A stretch of DNA of 64,000 nucleotides from contig JAQXTL010000014.1 of assembly GCA_029219465.1 (NCBI GenBank), positions 1-64,000 of the forward strand. Direction: 5' to 3'. Source of the stretch: Methanobacteriaceae archaeon (GTDB lineage: Archaea > Methanobacteriota > Methanobacteria > Methanobacteriales > Methanobacteriaceae). The notes below the pieces were generated by a model. It was not told where the DNA came from and made no database searches. It saw only the letters and a program-made list of their open reading frames with translations. A program made the position numbers and the translations under genes. This document shows positions 14,981 to 48,336 of this stretch, one piece after another; position 1 is the first letter of the stretch, and each line of letters begins with the position of its first letter.

Positions 14981-15060
14981 GTACACTTCAAGTGTAACGT
15001 TTTCGAAGGTATATTAGAACTGAAGAGGTGCATTTCAACTGTAAACACTTGAAATTTCAC
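14981..15060. repeat. Inverted origin-box pairs at the left edge of oriC
   Basis: Two dyads differ from the direct repeats to the right. The first is an odd palindrome at 14982-14996, TACACTT-C-AAGTGTA, in which two half boxes share one centre. The second, at about 15028-15060, is an imperfect inverted repeat: GGTG...ATTTCAA facing TTGAAAT...CACC, which places a box on each strand. They could orient or cap Orc1 assembly on the side away from cdc6. Confidence 0.8.
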
Positions 15061-15150
15061 CCTATTATTTTTTCTTTTATTTTTTAATTTTAAGCTCTTA
15101 AAAGTCTTTATTTTTAATTCTAAGAATTTTTTAAAAAATTTTAATTTTTT

Positions 15151-15431
15151 TACACTTGAAATATATGTCTTGATTTTTTCAATATCTGTGAAATTACTTA
15201 CACTTGAAACACATGTCTGTCTCTATTTTGCAAATTTTAATTTTTTTTTCAAATTCAAAATTTCTAAAAATTTTACACTTGAAATATATGTCTTGATTTT
15301 TTGATTATATTGAAATTTCATTTCACTTGAAATACATGTCTCTCTCATTTCTCAAAATTTTTACACTTGAAAATTATGTCTTGATTTTTGATTTTCGCAC
15401 AAAATTGCTTTCACTTGAAACACATGTCTCT
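15151..15431 (+). repeat. Direct origin recognition boxes, three A-B pairs 48 bp apart
   Basis: Six boxes share TTACACTTGAAA or a close variant and fall into two classes by their right flank. Class A (boxes at 15153, 15276, 15364) continues with ATGTCTTGATTTTT. Class B (15201, 15324, 15412) continues with ACATGTCTCTCTC or a near match. They alternate A-B-A-B-A-B, and the A-to-B distance is exactly 48 bp each time, while B-to-A distances are 75 and 40 bp. A weaker seventh box is at 15523. Confidence 0.9.
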
Positions 15432-15540
15432 CTCTTTTTTCACAATTATTTTTGTTTTTTTAAAAAATTTCTGATTTAAGCGCCAAATAGCTCTTATTTT
15501 TCTTATTTTTACTTAAGTTTTACACTTGAAATAGTTATCT

Positions 15541-15817: not shown

Positions 15818-16981
15818 ATGTCAAATATTTTTGATGAATTACAAAATAATAATGAAGGGACATTAATATTTAAAGATAAAAAACCCTTGGATCACAGATG
15901 GTTACCTGATAATTTAGTACATAGGGAAGAACAGATTAGACAAATTGCAAAAAATTGGATTGATGTATTAAACGATGTTACACCTTCCAATGTTACTTTA
16001 TATGGAAAAACTGGAACAGGTAAAACTGCAACTTCTAAATTTGCACGTGAACAGCTCATGGAAGTTGCTCGTAAAAAGAAAATCTTTGTTAAAATTGAAT
16101 ATATCAGATGTACTGATTATACTACTGAATATCAGGTTATTGCAAAATTATGTAACCAGCTTGGACGTGATGTTCCAAACCGTGGTTGGACAAAAGGTGA
16201 AGTTGTAAATACCTTTAGAGATATCTTCAAATCTAGTAATGCTTTTGGTAAAAAACTACAATTAATTGTTATTTTAGATGAGATTGATATTTTGCTTAAT
16301 AAAGATGGGGATGGAATTTTATATACTCTTACTAGAACAGACAATGTTTCTGTACTATGTATCAGTAATTATTTAGATTTCAAAAATTTAATCAAACCTA
16401 GAGTAACTAGTAGTTTAAATGATAAAGAAATAGTATTTCCACCATATGGTGCAACTCAGTTAATTGATATATTAAATGAAAGGGCTGCATTATCTTTTAA
16501 TGAAAATGTACTTGCAGATGATGTTATTCCATTATGTTCTGCAATGGCTGCTAAAGAAGAGGGTGATGCAAGATACGCTCTTGATTTACTTAGAAATGCA
16601 GGTGAATTAGCATTTGATGAAGATTCTGATAAAGTCACTACTGCTCATGTTAGAATGGCAAAAGACAGAATTGAACACAATAAGGTTATTGATATTATTA
16701 AAACTTTACCTCTTCAACAGCAAAGAGTTTTAGTTTCAATTTTAAATTTAACTAAACAAAAAGAAGAAATTACATCTGGTAAATTATATGAAACTTACAC
16801 AGATTTATACAAAAAAGATGCTGTTACTTACAGAAGAATCTTTGATTTTATTAATGAACTTGAAATGTTAGGAATCATTTCCACAAACACTATTTCTCGT
16901 GGCCGTGGAAAAGGAAGAACTAACATTATAAAGTTACAATGTGATGAAACATTATTAGAATCATCCCTAACAGTTATTTAG
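15818..16981 (+). CDS. cdc6: Orc1/Cdc6 origin-binding initiator ATPase
   Basis: This 387-residue AAA+ protein recognises origin boxes and recruits MCM. Walker A (GKTGTGKT) lies near residue 65 and Walker B ([11 protein letters not shown]) near 150. The sensor region follows, and a C-terminal winged helix occupies residues 290-380. GGTGGA precedes the ATG. The adjacent box-filled origin supports the Cdc6-1 type that controls its own origin. Its last 8 bp overlap convergent pyrB. Confidence 0.95.
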
Positions 16982-33334: not shown

Positions 33335-33356
33335 ATTATTATTTTTTTTAAGTTTT

Positions 33357-33377
33357 AACTTATAACTTATAACTTAT
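33357..33377 (+). repeat. Three tandem AACTTAT heptads in the leuA leader
   Basis: Three perfect copies of AACTTAT stand head to tail between the HAD gene and leuA. The same heptad fills the region before parA 5 kb away. It may be an operator or a remnant of that repeat family. Confidence 0.7.
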
Positions 33378-33458
33378 ATCAAATTTTTACCAATGAAAAA
33401 TTTATTAATATTCAATTTTATACTTATATATTATAAAATGGCAAATGGGAGGAATACT

Positions 33459-38548: not shown

Positions 38549-38580
38549 TTATTTTTCTTATTTTTTTTTATTTTTTTGTT

Positions 38581-38970
38581 TGTTATAAGTTATAACTAAT
38601 AACTTACTACTTATTTCTTATTACTTATAACTTATACTTATAAGTTATAACTTATTTCTATTAACAAATAACTGATAACTTATTTGTGAAAACAAATAAT
38701 TTATAAGATAGAAGTTATAAAATATAACTTATATGTTAAAAGTTAGTTATGATAAGTTATTTCTTAAAACTTATTTTTTATAACTTAGACGTTTTAACTT
38801 AAAACTTAATTCTTATCCCTTAGAAGTTAAAACTGATAAGTTATTTCCCCTAAGTTTTAATTTATAAGATATAACTTAATCCTTTTAACTTATACTGAAT
38901 AACTGAAAAGTTATTCTTTTAACCCTTTAAATTTTTAAGTTATAAGTTATCTGTGATGACTTAAAACTTA
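38581..38970. repeat. Degenerate AACTTAT/ATAAGTT heptad-repeat field upstream of parA
   Basis: About 390 bp without a gene, made largely of AACTTA and its reverse complement TAAGTT: I count more than 20 exact or one-mismatch copies on both strands. In parts the copies are in exact 7-bp register, as at 38603, 38610, 38617, 38624 and 38631. Several pairs form palindromes such as ATAAGTTATAACTTAT. The position directly upstream of parA suggests a centromere-like (parS) region or an autoregulatory operator. Confidence 0.75.
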
Positions 38971-38992
38971 TCATATGCAGGAGAATTCTTTA

Positions 38993-39793
38993 ATGAGTGA
39001 AATTATAGCGGTGATGAATCAAAAAGGAGGTTGTGGTAAGACAACTACTGTCGTAAATACTGCAACTTCATTAGCAGTAATGGGAAAATCTGTTTTAATT
39101 GTTGATATGGATCCCCAAGCTAATGCTACAACTAGTTTTGGGATTGATAAGACAAAAGTAGAAAATACAGCATACGATGCTCTTATTGGAGATATAAATA
39201 TTAAAAAAGCAACAATTCCTACGTTTATTAAAAATTTGTTTATTATCCCTAGTAATATATCTCTTAGTGGAGTTGGAATGGAGCTTTCTAGACGTGAAAA
39301 TTATCACATTGTCCTTAAGGAAACTCTTAAAGATGTTGCACCATTATTTGATTACATATTCATCGATTTACCTCCTTCATTAGGTGTCATAACAGTCAAT
39401 GCATTAGTAGCTTCAGATAGTGTTTTAATACCTATCCAATCTGAGTATTATGCACTTGAAGGGGTAGCTGATTTAATCAACACTATTAAACTTGTTGAAA
39501 AAAGACTTAGAAGTCCAACACCTATTAAAGGAATTCTCCTAACCCTATATGATAAAAGGACTAGACTCAGTAAAGACGTCCGCAATGAACTTAAAAAATA
39601 CTTTAGCGATTCAAACTTATTATTTGACACTATAATTCCAAGAAATATTAGATTAGCTGAAGCCCCAAGTTATGGAAAACCTTGTTTAATTTACGATCCT
39701 GAAAGTACAGGTACCAAAGCATATCTTAAATTAGCTAAGGAAATCCTTAAAAGAGATGAAAAGGGTGAAAATAACAATAAGGGGGATAACTAA
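38993..39793 (+). CDS. parA: ParA/Soj-type partition ATPase
   Basis: A 266-residue deviant-Walker ATPase. MNQKGGCGKTTT (residues 8-19) is the ParA P-loop with the signature Lys, DMDPQANAT near residue 37 is Walker A', and FIDLPPSLG near 123 is Walker B. C replaces the usual V in KGGVGKTT. It lacks an N-terminal DNA-binding domain, like chromosomal Soj. The start at 38993 is set by AGGAG; the frame from 38975 would start inside it. The stop overlaps the start of the next gene by 1 bp, so the two are coupled. Confidence 0.92.
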   Translation: MSEIIAVMNQKGGCGKTTTVVNTATSLAVMGKSVLIVDMDPQANATTSFGIDKTKVENTAYDALIGDINIKKATIPTFIKNLFIIPSNISLSGVGMELSRRENYHIVLKETLKDVAPLFDYIFIDLPPSLGVITVNALVASDSVLIPIQSEYYALEGVADLINTIKLVEKRLRSPTPIKGILLTLYDKRTRLSKDVRNELKKYFSDSNLLFDTIIPRNIRLAEAPSYGKPCLIYDPESTGTKAYLKLAKEILKRDEKGENNNKGDN

Positions 39794-40593
39794 TGGCTAG
39801 AAAAGGACTTGGAAGAGGTTTAGATGCTTTAATTCCTGAATTTTATAATGAAGATTTCGACAGTAACTCTGCACTTTCTCTTGAAGATATGCTAAGTGAA
39901 GACGAAGCTATTGATGATATTGTTCCTGAAACTACTGAGAGTAGTGAGGAAGAAGTTGTTGAAGAAGAAAACAAAGATTCAGATGAAGAATCTAGTGATG
40001 ATGAAGGCACTGATATATCTGATGATACTCAAGAAGAAGTTTCAAAAGATGATGAAAGCGCAGATGAAAAATCTGGCGAAGAATCTGATGAAGAATCAGA
40101 AGAAAATGATGAAAAAGACAGTGAAGATGAGTCTTTAGATGATGATAATGATGATGCAGAAGAGTCCGTCTCTGAAGATGTATCTGATAAAAATGATCAA
40201 AAAAATATATTCGAAAAAATAGAGGATGAAGAAAATGATCAAGAAGATATTGATGAGTCCACTGAAAGCTCAACTGAAGAGGTTGAAGACTCTGAAGATG
40301 GAGACTCTGCTAGTGATGAGAGCTCTCAGGATAATCCTGAAGATAGTGAAGATAGCGATGAAGATATCCTCTCTACAGAAGAAATTAAAATTATGGAAAA
40401 TGTAGCAGAAGTTAAAGAGATTGTTGCTAAAAATCCAAGAATTACATTATGGTCTTCAAAATCATCTGCTGTATTTAGATATTTAAGAAAAACTGAACCT
40501 GAATTCAGTATTTCTAAAGAAGCTTCAAAGTTAATTGATGATGCTGTCTCCAAAAAGTACCCTGAAATATGGGAATTATTTGAAGATGTATAA
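39793..40593 (+). CDS. ParA partner with ParB-type N-terminal motif and acidic linker
   Basis: The first 15 residues, ARKGLGRGLDALIPE, match the conserved N-terminus of bacterial ParB, the part that touches ParA and stimulates its ATPase. The ParB catalytic (CTPase) and HTH domains are missing. Residues 30-195 are an extreme Asp/Glu/Ser linker with almost no hydrophobic residues. The C-terminal domain (about 196-266) is ordered and amphipathic, with NPRITLWSSKSS and YLRKTEPEFSISKEASKL, and might bind DNA. It is probably a functional replacement for ParB; this is inference. The start ATG overlaps the parA stop. Confidence 0.75.
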   Translation: MARKGLGRGLDALIPEFYNEDFDSNSALSLEDMLSEDEAIDDIVPETTESSEEEVVEEENKDSDEESSDDEGTDISDDTQEEVSKDDESADEKSGEESDEESEENDEKDSEDESLDDDNDDAEESVSEDVSDKNDQKNIFEKIEDEENDQEDIDESTESSTEEVEDSEDGDSASDESSQDNPEDSEDSDEDILSTEEIKIMENVAEVKEIVAKNPRITLWSSKSSAVFRYLRKTEPEFSISKEASKLIDDAVSKKYPEIWELFEDV

Positions 40594-47115: not shown

Positions 47116-48336
47116 ATGGAAGAATATGAAATAGCTGTTATTGGCGGAGGTCCAGCAGGAATTATGGCTGCAATTGCAGCTTCAAAAAATTCCTCAAATG
47201 TTATAATACTTGAAAAAAACCCTAAACTAGGTCGTAAACTCTTAACAACCGGTGGGGGAAGATGTAATATTACAAATGCTAAGCCAATTAAAAAGCTATT
47301 AAAATTCTATCCTCAAAAAAATTTTTTAAAACACTCTTTTTATACACTTACAAATGAATATTTACTCTCCTTTTTTGAAAATAAAGGTTTAAACTTCATA
47401 GAAGAAGACAATAATAGAATTTTTCCTGAAAGTGAAAAATCCAGTGATATCTTAAAAATTCTAACTGATTATTTGGAAGATGTGGTTATAAGTTATAACT
47501 TTGAAGTTAAATCAATCAGTGATGATTTTGTTATAAATGATAAGATAAAAGCAGATAAGATTATTATTGCAACAGGTGGTATAACTTATCCTCAAACTGG
47601 ATGTAGTATTGATAACTATTTTTTAACTTCGCAACCTTTAACTGATATCAAATATGGTCTTGTACCATTAGTTACCAAAAAAGATTTGTCAAGTATTGCT
47701 GGGGTAACACTCTATGATGTTGTTATAAGTTATAAGAAAACAAAAGTTCAGGGAAATGTTTTAATTTCACATGTTGGACTAACAGGACCTGGAATTATAG
47801 ATTTGAGTAATGATATTTCAGAAAGTATAAGTTATAACTTATTAGAAAATGATGATGTTGATGTTGATTTTGAAATAGCTATTGACTTATGTCCTGAGTC
47901 TAGTCGTGAAGAGTTACAAGATAAGTTTAATCAGGATTTCCAGACCAAAGGAAAAACAATGATTAAAAATTATTTAAAGTTATTTTTAACAAACAAGTTC
48001 ATTGATTTCTTTTTAGATGAAATAAACCTTGATGGTGAAACTCAACTTTCAAGAATTAATAAAAAAAGTAAAAACAGACTTATTGAGAATTTAAAAAGAT
48101 TTACTTTTAATATAACTGGTTTTAATGACAAGTTGGCTAAAGTAACTATTGGAGGTATTGATTTAGACAGTATCAATCCAAAAACAATGGAGTCAACTGT
48201 AATACCTGATTTATACTTTGCAGGTGAAGTATTGGATTTACATGGTCCTACCGGTGGGTATAACTTAAAAATTGCTTTTTCAACAGGTTATTTGGCAGGA
48301 TTATCTGCAAGTGAAAAAAAGAAGGATAGAAATTAA
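47116..48336 (+). CDS. HI0933/YhiN-type FAD-dependent oxidoreductase
   Basis: A 406-residue flavoprotein. It opens with IAVIGGGPAGIMAA, the FAD Rossmann loop, has GRKLLTTGGGRCNITN near 42 and ends with FAGEVLDLHGPTGGYNL, both family signatures. The reaction is not known for most members. It follows aspS by 21 bp with no strong ribosome-binding site. ATAAGTTATAA occurs three times in its coding sequence (near 47488, 47720 and 47826). Confidence 0.85.
   Translation: MEEYEIAVIGGGPAGIMAAIAASKNSSNVIILEKNPKLGRKLLTTGGGRCNITNAKPIKKLLKFYPQKNFLKHSFYTLTNEYLLSFFENKGLNFIEEDNNRIFPESEKSSDILKILTDYLEDVVISYNFEVKSISDDFVINDKIKADKIIIATGGITYPQTGCSIDNYFLTSQPLTDIKYGLVPLVTKKDLSSIAGVTLYDVVISYKKTKVQGNVLISHVGLTGPGIIDLSNDISESISYNLLENDDVDVDFEIAIDLCPESSREELQDKFNQDFQTKGKTMIKNYLKLFLTNKFIDFFLDEINLDGETQLSRINKKSKNRLIENLKRFTFNITGFNDKLAKVTIGGIDLDSINPKTMESTVIPDLYFAGEVLDLHGPTGGYNLKIAFSTGYLAGLSASEKKKDRN

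Follow-up and report, generated by a model that had tools for sequence, protein, structure and literature searches.

The window analysed here is a 64-kb stretch of DNA from a Methanobacteriaceae archaeon, whose close relatives are Methanobrevibacter. It contains a ParA-type ATPase gene and a partner gene, segA and segB, which share base 39793 (the segA stop TAA and the segB start ATG, a 1-bp overlap). The segA start at 38993 is the one kept in relatives, and an alternative in-frame ATG lies upstream at 38975. The neighbours of the pair are housekeeping genes. The features discussed below are as follows.

38993-39793, forward strand: segA, bacterial-type ParA/Soj ATPase, 266 aa (Pfam AAA_31, E 1.2e-61)
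39793-40593, forward strand: segB, 266 aa, with ParB-type tip, acidic linker and SegB RHH domain
39808-39834, forward strand: putative ParA-activating motif L6-G-R8-G-L10-D-A-L13-I14, aligned with M. xanthus ParB L11/R13/L15/L18/I19
39841-40377, forward strand: Asp/Glu/Ser linker, residues 17-195
40378-40590, forward strand: SegB C-terminal domain, about residues 196-266 (profile match to SegB in the PDB; AlphaFold2 and Foldseek)
40498-40515, forward strand: expected RHH strand PEFSIS, inside the SegB C-terminal domain
38565-38977, no strand: heptad array of about 54 contiguous 7-bp units, TAA(C/G)TTA, candidate centromere and operator of segAB
33349-33378, no strand: satellite heptad array of four units, intergenic, 5.6 kb upstream of segA
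47489-47509, no strand: weak intragenic heptad triplet in a flavoprotein-like gene (47116-48336), which may be chance
47828-47841, no strand: intragenic double heptad TAAGTTATAACTTA in the same flavoprotein-like gene (47116-48336)
15866-16936, forward strand: orc1/cdc6, context for the predicted origin (TIGR02928, E 4.3e-120)
14986-15531, no strand: nine mini-ORB-like sites TTWCACTTGAAA at the predicted oriC, context

An earlier sequence-only reading had proposed a partition locus here, and this is supported, as segAB. The ParA gene at 38993-39793 overlapping its partner by 1 bp, the ParB-like N-terminus of the partner, the extreme Asp/Glu/Ser linker behind it and the distance of about 23 kb from oriC were all found as that reading had them.

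The segB product has no match to any Pfam or NCBIfam family, and Rfam gave no match above the gathering score on the segAB locus. We searched all PDB chains with a profile of the C-terminal domain, built from 11 sequences, and it turned out that Saccharolobus (Sulfolobus) solfataricus SegB (7dv2/7duv) was the top match over the whole domain (E 1.2e-10), with the second-best match at E 0.069. The AlphaFold2 model of the domain (pLDDT 91.6), made from an alignment with Thermoproteota SegB rows added, was matched by Foldseek to four SegB chains (best 7duv; TM 0.81, rmsd 1.6 A, probability 1.00, with a modest E-value of 0.009) and to nothing else of note; since the alignment includes SegB rows, the fold match and the profile match are not entirely independent. 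A first model from 38 close relatives (pLDDT 77) had no PDB match. The earlier reading had regarded this domain as unrelated to known partition proteins and the pair as distinct from Sulfolobus SegAB. Both views have to be given up: the HMM search and structure prediction it had suggested each led to S. solfataricus SegB instead of an unrelated domain, the SegB domain is homologous, and the overlapping segA-segB order is as published (PMC12284271). Its proposal that the partner binds DNA or another factor by a new domain is rejected as well, the domain being the SegB RHH by profile (E 1.2e-10) and predicted fold (TM 0.81). On the SegB-type domain and the gene order, the partner is assigned to SegB and the pair to euryarchaeal segAB. 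Such pairs, with SegB of 94-300 aa and overlapping genes, have already been published in Euryarchaeota (PMC12284271), and euryarchaeal SegB orthologues, M. thermautotrophicus included, were reported earlier (PMC5120986). Among the 152 genomes of the Methanobacteria phylum, 136 contain SegB (85 of 91 good genomes); a search in the phylum of genome G058 gave no SegB match and is uninformative.

The 444-bp gap before segA differs from an ordinary AT-rich spacer. Its autocorrelation stood out from dinucleotide shuffles at lags 7, 14, 21, 28, 35 and 42 (z 7.1-9.8), and no other lag up to 42 exceeded the shuffles. A PWM traced the run of heptads from 38565 to 38977, with units in phase except for a few 1-bp slips, and TAA(C/G)TTA is palindromic except for its central base. 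Tandem Repeats Finder reported period 7 with 44.7 copies here and a single other period-7 array in the 64 kb, at 33356-33378 within the satellite 33349-33378, which is also TAA(C/G)TTA. Among 638 tiles of 300 bp, no other one came close to the segA-upstream array. The region singled out by the sequence-only reading starts at 38581, inside the array, which it left unmentioned.

The TAA(C/G)TTA heptads precede segA in nearly all Methanobacteria. Where SegA is at least 65% identical, about 20-73 copies are usual; Methanothermobacter-like genomes have 8-10 just upstream of segA, and Methanosphaera-like genomes 3-13, sometimes near noise; as the highest shuffled-control score is 19, the shortest arrays are marginal. 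The Methanothermus-like genome G049 has no heptad array at segA, and the segA-upstream regions of Sulfolobales show no 7-bp period. In genome G055, a second segAB pair, divergent and located next to an Orc1/Cdc6 gene (L199, G055:C6), has its own period-7 array, whose unit is near TCTACGA (lag-7 z 7.3), suggesting that the unit changes with SegB and the 7-bp step stays. Besides, a SegB-like paralogue with the divergent tip GGFGADMGSML (L182, G159:C1:476000-480000) is preceded by an array whose period is 8 bp instead of 7 (z 5.8). A literature search that took in few subscription papers found no description of heptads or of a ParB tip for archaeal SegB, and the heptad array has apparently not been described before.

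To look beyond the main array, we scanned 15 genomes for exact copies of the double heptad TAASTTATAASTTA and took the reversed pattern as a control. In the window's own genome, 5 of 6 matches fall inside the 64-kb window. Leaving out the sites of the segA-upstream array, 12 of 23 satellites on 11 chromosomes lie no more than 60 kb from segA, where 1.5 would be expected; none of 20000 simulations gave such a result, a p value that is approximate because sites within a genome are not independent. For instance, G049 has six sites of about 5 heptads at 30-93 kb from segA, at least three of which share flanks. G138 and G073 have satellites far from segAB. The stretch 47828-47841 is also present in a relative, G010 (L261).

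SegB begins with MARKGLGRGLDALIPEF, which holds the ParB-like tip KGLGRGLDALIPE. The pattern LGxGL[DNEAS][AS]L occurs once when the window is read in all six frames, and all 96 distinct relatives with an intact N-terminus carry LGxG(L/I)xxL with I, F or L as the next residue, so that the motif is not a product of chance. The sequence-only reading had named absence of the motif from homologs as a sign against it; the opposite is seen. In M. xanthus ParB, mutations of L11, R13, L15, L18 and I19 affect ParA binding or activation; R13A nearly abolishes activation and R13K is largely functional (PMC12462528). The position of R13 is Arg or Lys in 86 of the 96 SegB tips and Met or Leu in the other 10, which are mostly from Methanothermobacter-like genomes by inferred label (e.g. 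L039-L047). A tip profile run against the whole PDB had five matches in all, the best being T. thermophilus Spo0J (GLGRGLEALLP, E 0.053), and it also matched C. crescentus ParB (E 0.23), both at the protein N-terminus; the E-values are weak, as is to be expected of a profile of 22 positions. Its matches to lumazine synthase were internal and were set aside as chance. Sulfolobales SegB starts MSELDFLL, without a ParB tip, and the N-termini of other Thermoproteota SegB are basic, whereas SegB of the G055 family (inferred Archaeoglobi) has LGxGL tips, which places the tip in a euryarchaeal SegB branch.

Behind the tip, residues 17-196 comprise 47 E, 41 D and 31 S among 180. This linker varies in length and sequence, ranging from 13 to 238 aa in relatives; SegB of the Methanothermobacter type is 97-100 aa long in all. 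Its length rises with heptad number (Spearman 0.69, n=66), a correlation we did not use as evidence because phylogeny confounds it.

Compared with M. xanthus ParA (8ray), the SegA of the window reaches 241 bits, and with S. solfataricus SegA (7dut) 68 bits; its identity to bacterial ParA from genes beside ParB is about 50%. In a maximum-likelihood tree, the branch that sets Sulfolobales SegA apart has 2.41 changes per site (100/100), and on its other side stand bacterial ParA and every euryarchaeal SegA in the analysis; the tree is unrooted with long branches and does not resolve the order inside the latter group. One ParA (L050, G030:C16) is encoded with bacterial Soj/Spo0J genes on a contig that is probably a contaminant of a methanogen assembly; it entered the tree only as a bacterial reference and was left out of the SegB set. 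Almost all of 120 ParA/SegA sequences retain Y81, E117, L150, G151, L187 and L192 of the ParB pocket; V116, L152 and L155 stay hydrophobic, and the D110 position is usually Ser. Judged from sequence, the window ATPase is of the bacterial ParA type and has retained the greater part of the ParB pocket. Because this pocket is common among ParA proteins, finding it here is compatible with an interaction between the tip and SegA but does not prove one. No ParB_N domain (PF02195) was found in the genome.

The mini-ORB-like repeats at 14986-15531 lie just upstream of orc1, part of them inside an 88-bp tandem repeat, and their clustering beside orc1/cdc6 upholds the proximity of segAB to oriC, as a prediction. 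The distance from segA to the orc1/mini-ORB region is 22-24 kb. In 26 of 28 genomes segAB and orc1 are 9-84 kb apart, and in the remaining 2 the distance is 200-300 kb.

The locus resembles S. solfataricus SegAB in its overlapping segA-segB, the homologous SegB RHH domain and sites upstream of segA. It differs from the Sulfolobales systems in that their SegB has no ParB tip, their SegA, of about 220 aa, stands on the separate 2.41-substitution branch, and their sites are palindromes with the core AGA(g/c)TCT; here TAASTTA heptads lie upstream of segA and that core was not found there. Nor was a SegA of the Sulfolobales type found, the ATPase being a bacterial-type ParA; since longer euryarchaeal SegA is counted as SegA (PMC12284271), this bears on subtype and not on membership. 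With bacterial ParABS (Soj/Spo0J) the locus shares a ParA about 50% identical, the N-terminal tip LGxGLxxLI, and a locus and satellite sites near the origin, but its DNA-binding domain is an RHH and its sites are heptads, not 16-bp parS. The partner, without the ParB_N/CTPase and HTH domains, is therefore not a ParB, although its tip probably works like that of ParB.

Another likeness is to pSM19035 delta/omega, in which a ParA and an RHH partner go with at least 4 contiguous unspaced 7-bp repeats near the partition genes. Omega reads unspaced heptads in either orientation upstream of its own genes and needs at least 4 of them (PMC9499535), and both SegB and omega wrap DNA as a left-handed helix (PMC9178275). 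The omega heptad is WATCACW and its tip MIVGNLGAQKAKRND, whereas the methanogen system is chromosomal and archaeal, with TAASTTA in up to about 73 units at one place. Profile and fold of the partner match SegB and not omega, giving no omega homology; the heptad centromere would thus be built and work like that of omega without sequence relation or membership. The Sulfolobus plasmid pNOB8 also has an archaeal ParA-based cassette with overlapping genes, AspA-ParB-ParA (PMC5120986), but with three genes, including a ParB with a Spo0J-like N-domain and the DNA-binder AspA, none of which is present here.

We consider it quite likely that this is a chromosomal SegAB partition locus of hybrid ParABS build, combining a bacterial-type ParA, a ParB tip, the SegB DNA-binder and a heptad centromere. 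By analogy with omega, SegB RHH dimers would stack along the TAA(C/G)TTA units, probably one dimer per unit. Stacking on the array of about 54 units and on the short satellites nearby would form a partition complex some 23 kb from the predicted origin, and the position of the array beside segA suggests autoregulation, SegB on the array probably also repressing the segAB operon. The disordered acidic linker would hold the tip LGRGLDALI away from the DNA and carry it to SegA, where it may trigger ATP hydrolysis; for the N-terminus of S. solfataricus SegB, stimulation of SegA has been reported (PMC11229316). Counted against this explanation are the Met or Leu at the R13 position in 10 of 96 tips, the Ser usual at D110, the lack of a segA array in G049, the far satellites of G138 and G073, and the 2 of 28 genomes with segAB 200-300 kb from orc1.

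The array is AT-rich and adjoins a promoter, only 8-10 units stand just upstream of segA in Methanothermobacter-like genomes, and RHH proteins commonly regulate their own genes, all of which would suit a simple microsatellite or an operator serving segAB autoregulation rather than a centromere. We regard this as unlikely: the units differ among themselves yet hold phase, with flips of the central C/G that sets their orientation, 54 units are far above what an operator needs, and satellites away from the promoter cluster near segAB. Moreover, the unit persists between genomes whose SegA is merely 58-70% identical, which argues against a pure microsatellite. The heptads might also be bound by a protein other than SegB, whose binding here is a prediction, S. 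solfataricus SegB recognising palindromes with the AGA(g/c)TCT core and not heptad arrays (PMC12284271). That core and TAASTTA are, though, alike in being 7-bp palindromes centred on C/G, the array has the position immediately before segA that SegB sites have in Sulfolobus, the divergent second pair of G055 has its own, different period-7 array, and the SegB fold wraps DNA like the heptad reader omega (PMC9178275), so another binder seems quite improbable.

As to the tip, it could dock on SegA without triggering its ATPase, or could serve nucleoid compaction more than segregation; the activating Arg/Lys is replaced in 10 of 96 tips, and SegAB also organises chromosomes in Sulfolobales (PMC12284271). 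Given Arg or Lys at that position in the other 86 and the largely functional M. xanthus R13K, we find this rather unlikely, with some chance left to it. A plasmid-type system on an integrated element, a reading favoured by the heptad centromeres with RHH partners known from plasmids and by the second, divergent pairs of G055 and G159, is largely refuted by the distribution of segAB (SegB in 136 of 152 phylum genomes and 85 of 91 good ones, near orc1 in 26 of 28, housekeeping neighbours) and is very improbable.

SegAB biology comes almost wholly from Sulfolobales. Work published in 2025 on SegB sites detected none close to segAB in the euryarchaeon it took as an example, and predicted that Euryarchaeota have sites with "a sequence quite different" (PMC12284271); the TAASTTA heptads are a concrete candidate answer for Methanobacteria. 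According to an earlier description, SegB and ParB share no sequence similarity (PMC9178275), and the work on ParA activation treated Sulfolobus SegA/SegB as separate from systems with the canonical ParB tip and pocket (PMC12462528). Methanogen SegA/SegB pairs carry the canonical tip and most of the pocket. We lean towards a third chromosomal partition architecture in Methanobacteria, and probably in G055-type archaea, of bacterial-type ParA, ParB-tipped SegB and heptad centromeres that reach about 70 units and have near-origin satellites. In that case, no euryarchaeal chromosome would have had its centromere defined by sequence before these arrays, and ParB and SegB would have the tip as a common module. 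The SegAB pair itself is of a known kind; the heptad centromere is the most valuable and directly testable part, with a natural series of array lengths from few to 73 units ready for comparison with omega, and ParA activation by an archaeal partner is now approachable with a 20-residue peptide.

Some variants were also seen among partner proteins. SegB-like proteins L191 (G443), L192 (G467) and L194 (G548) have two SegB domains per chain, and in L052 (G053) a ParA-like gene is followed by an overlapping 113-aa gene whose product has no SegB match and resembles another RHH-type partner.
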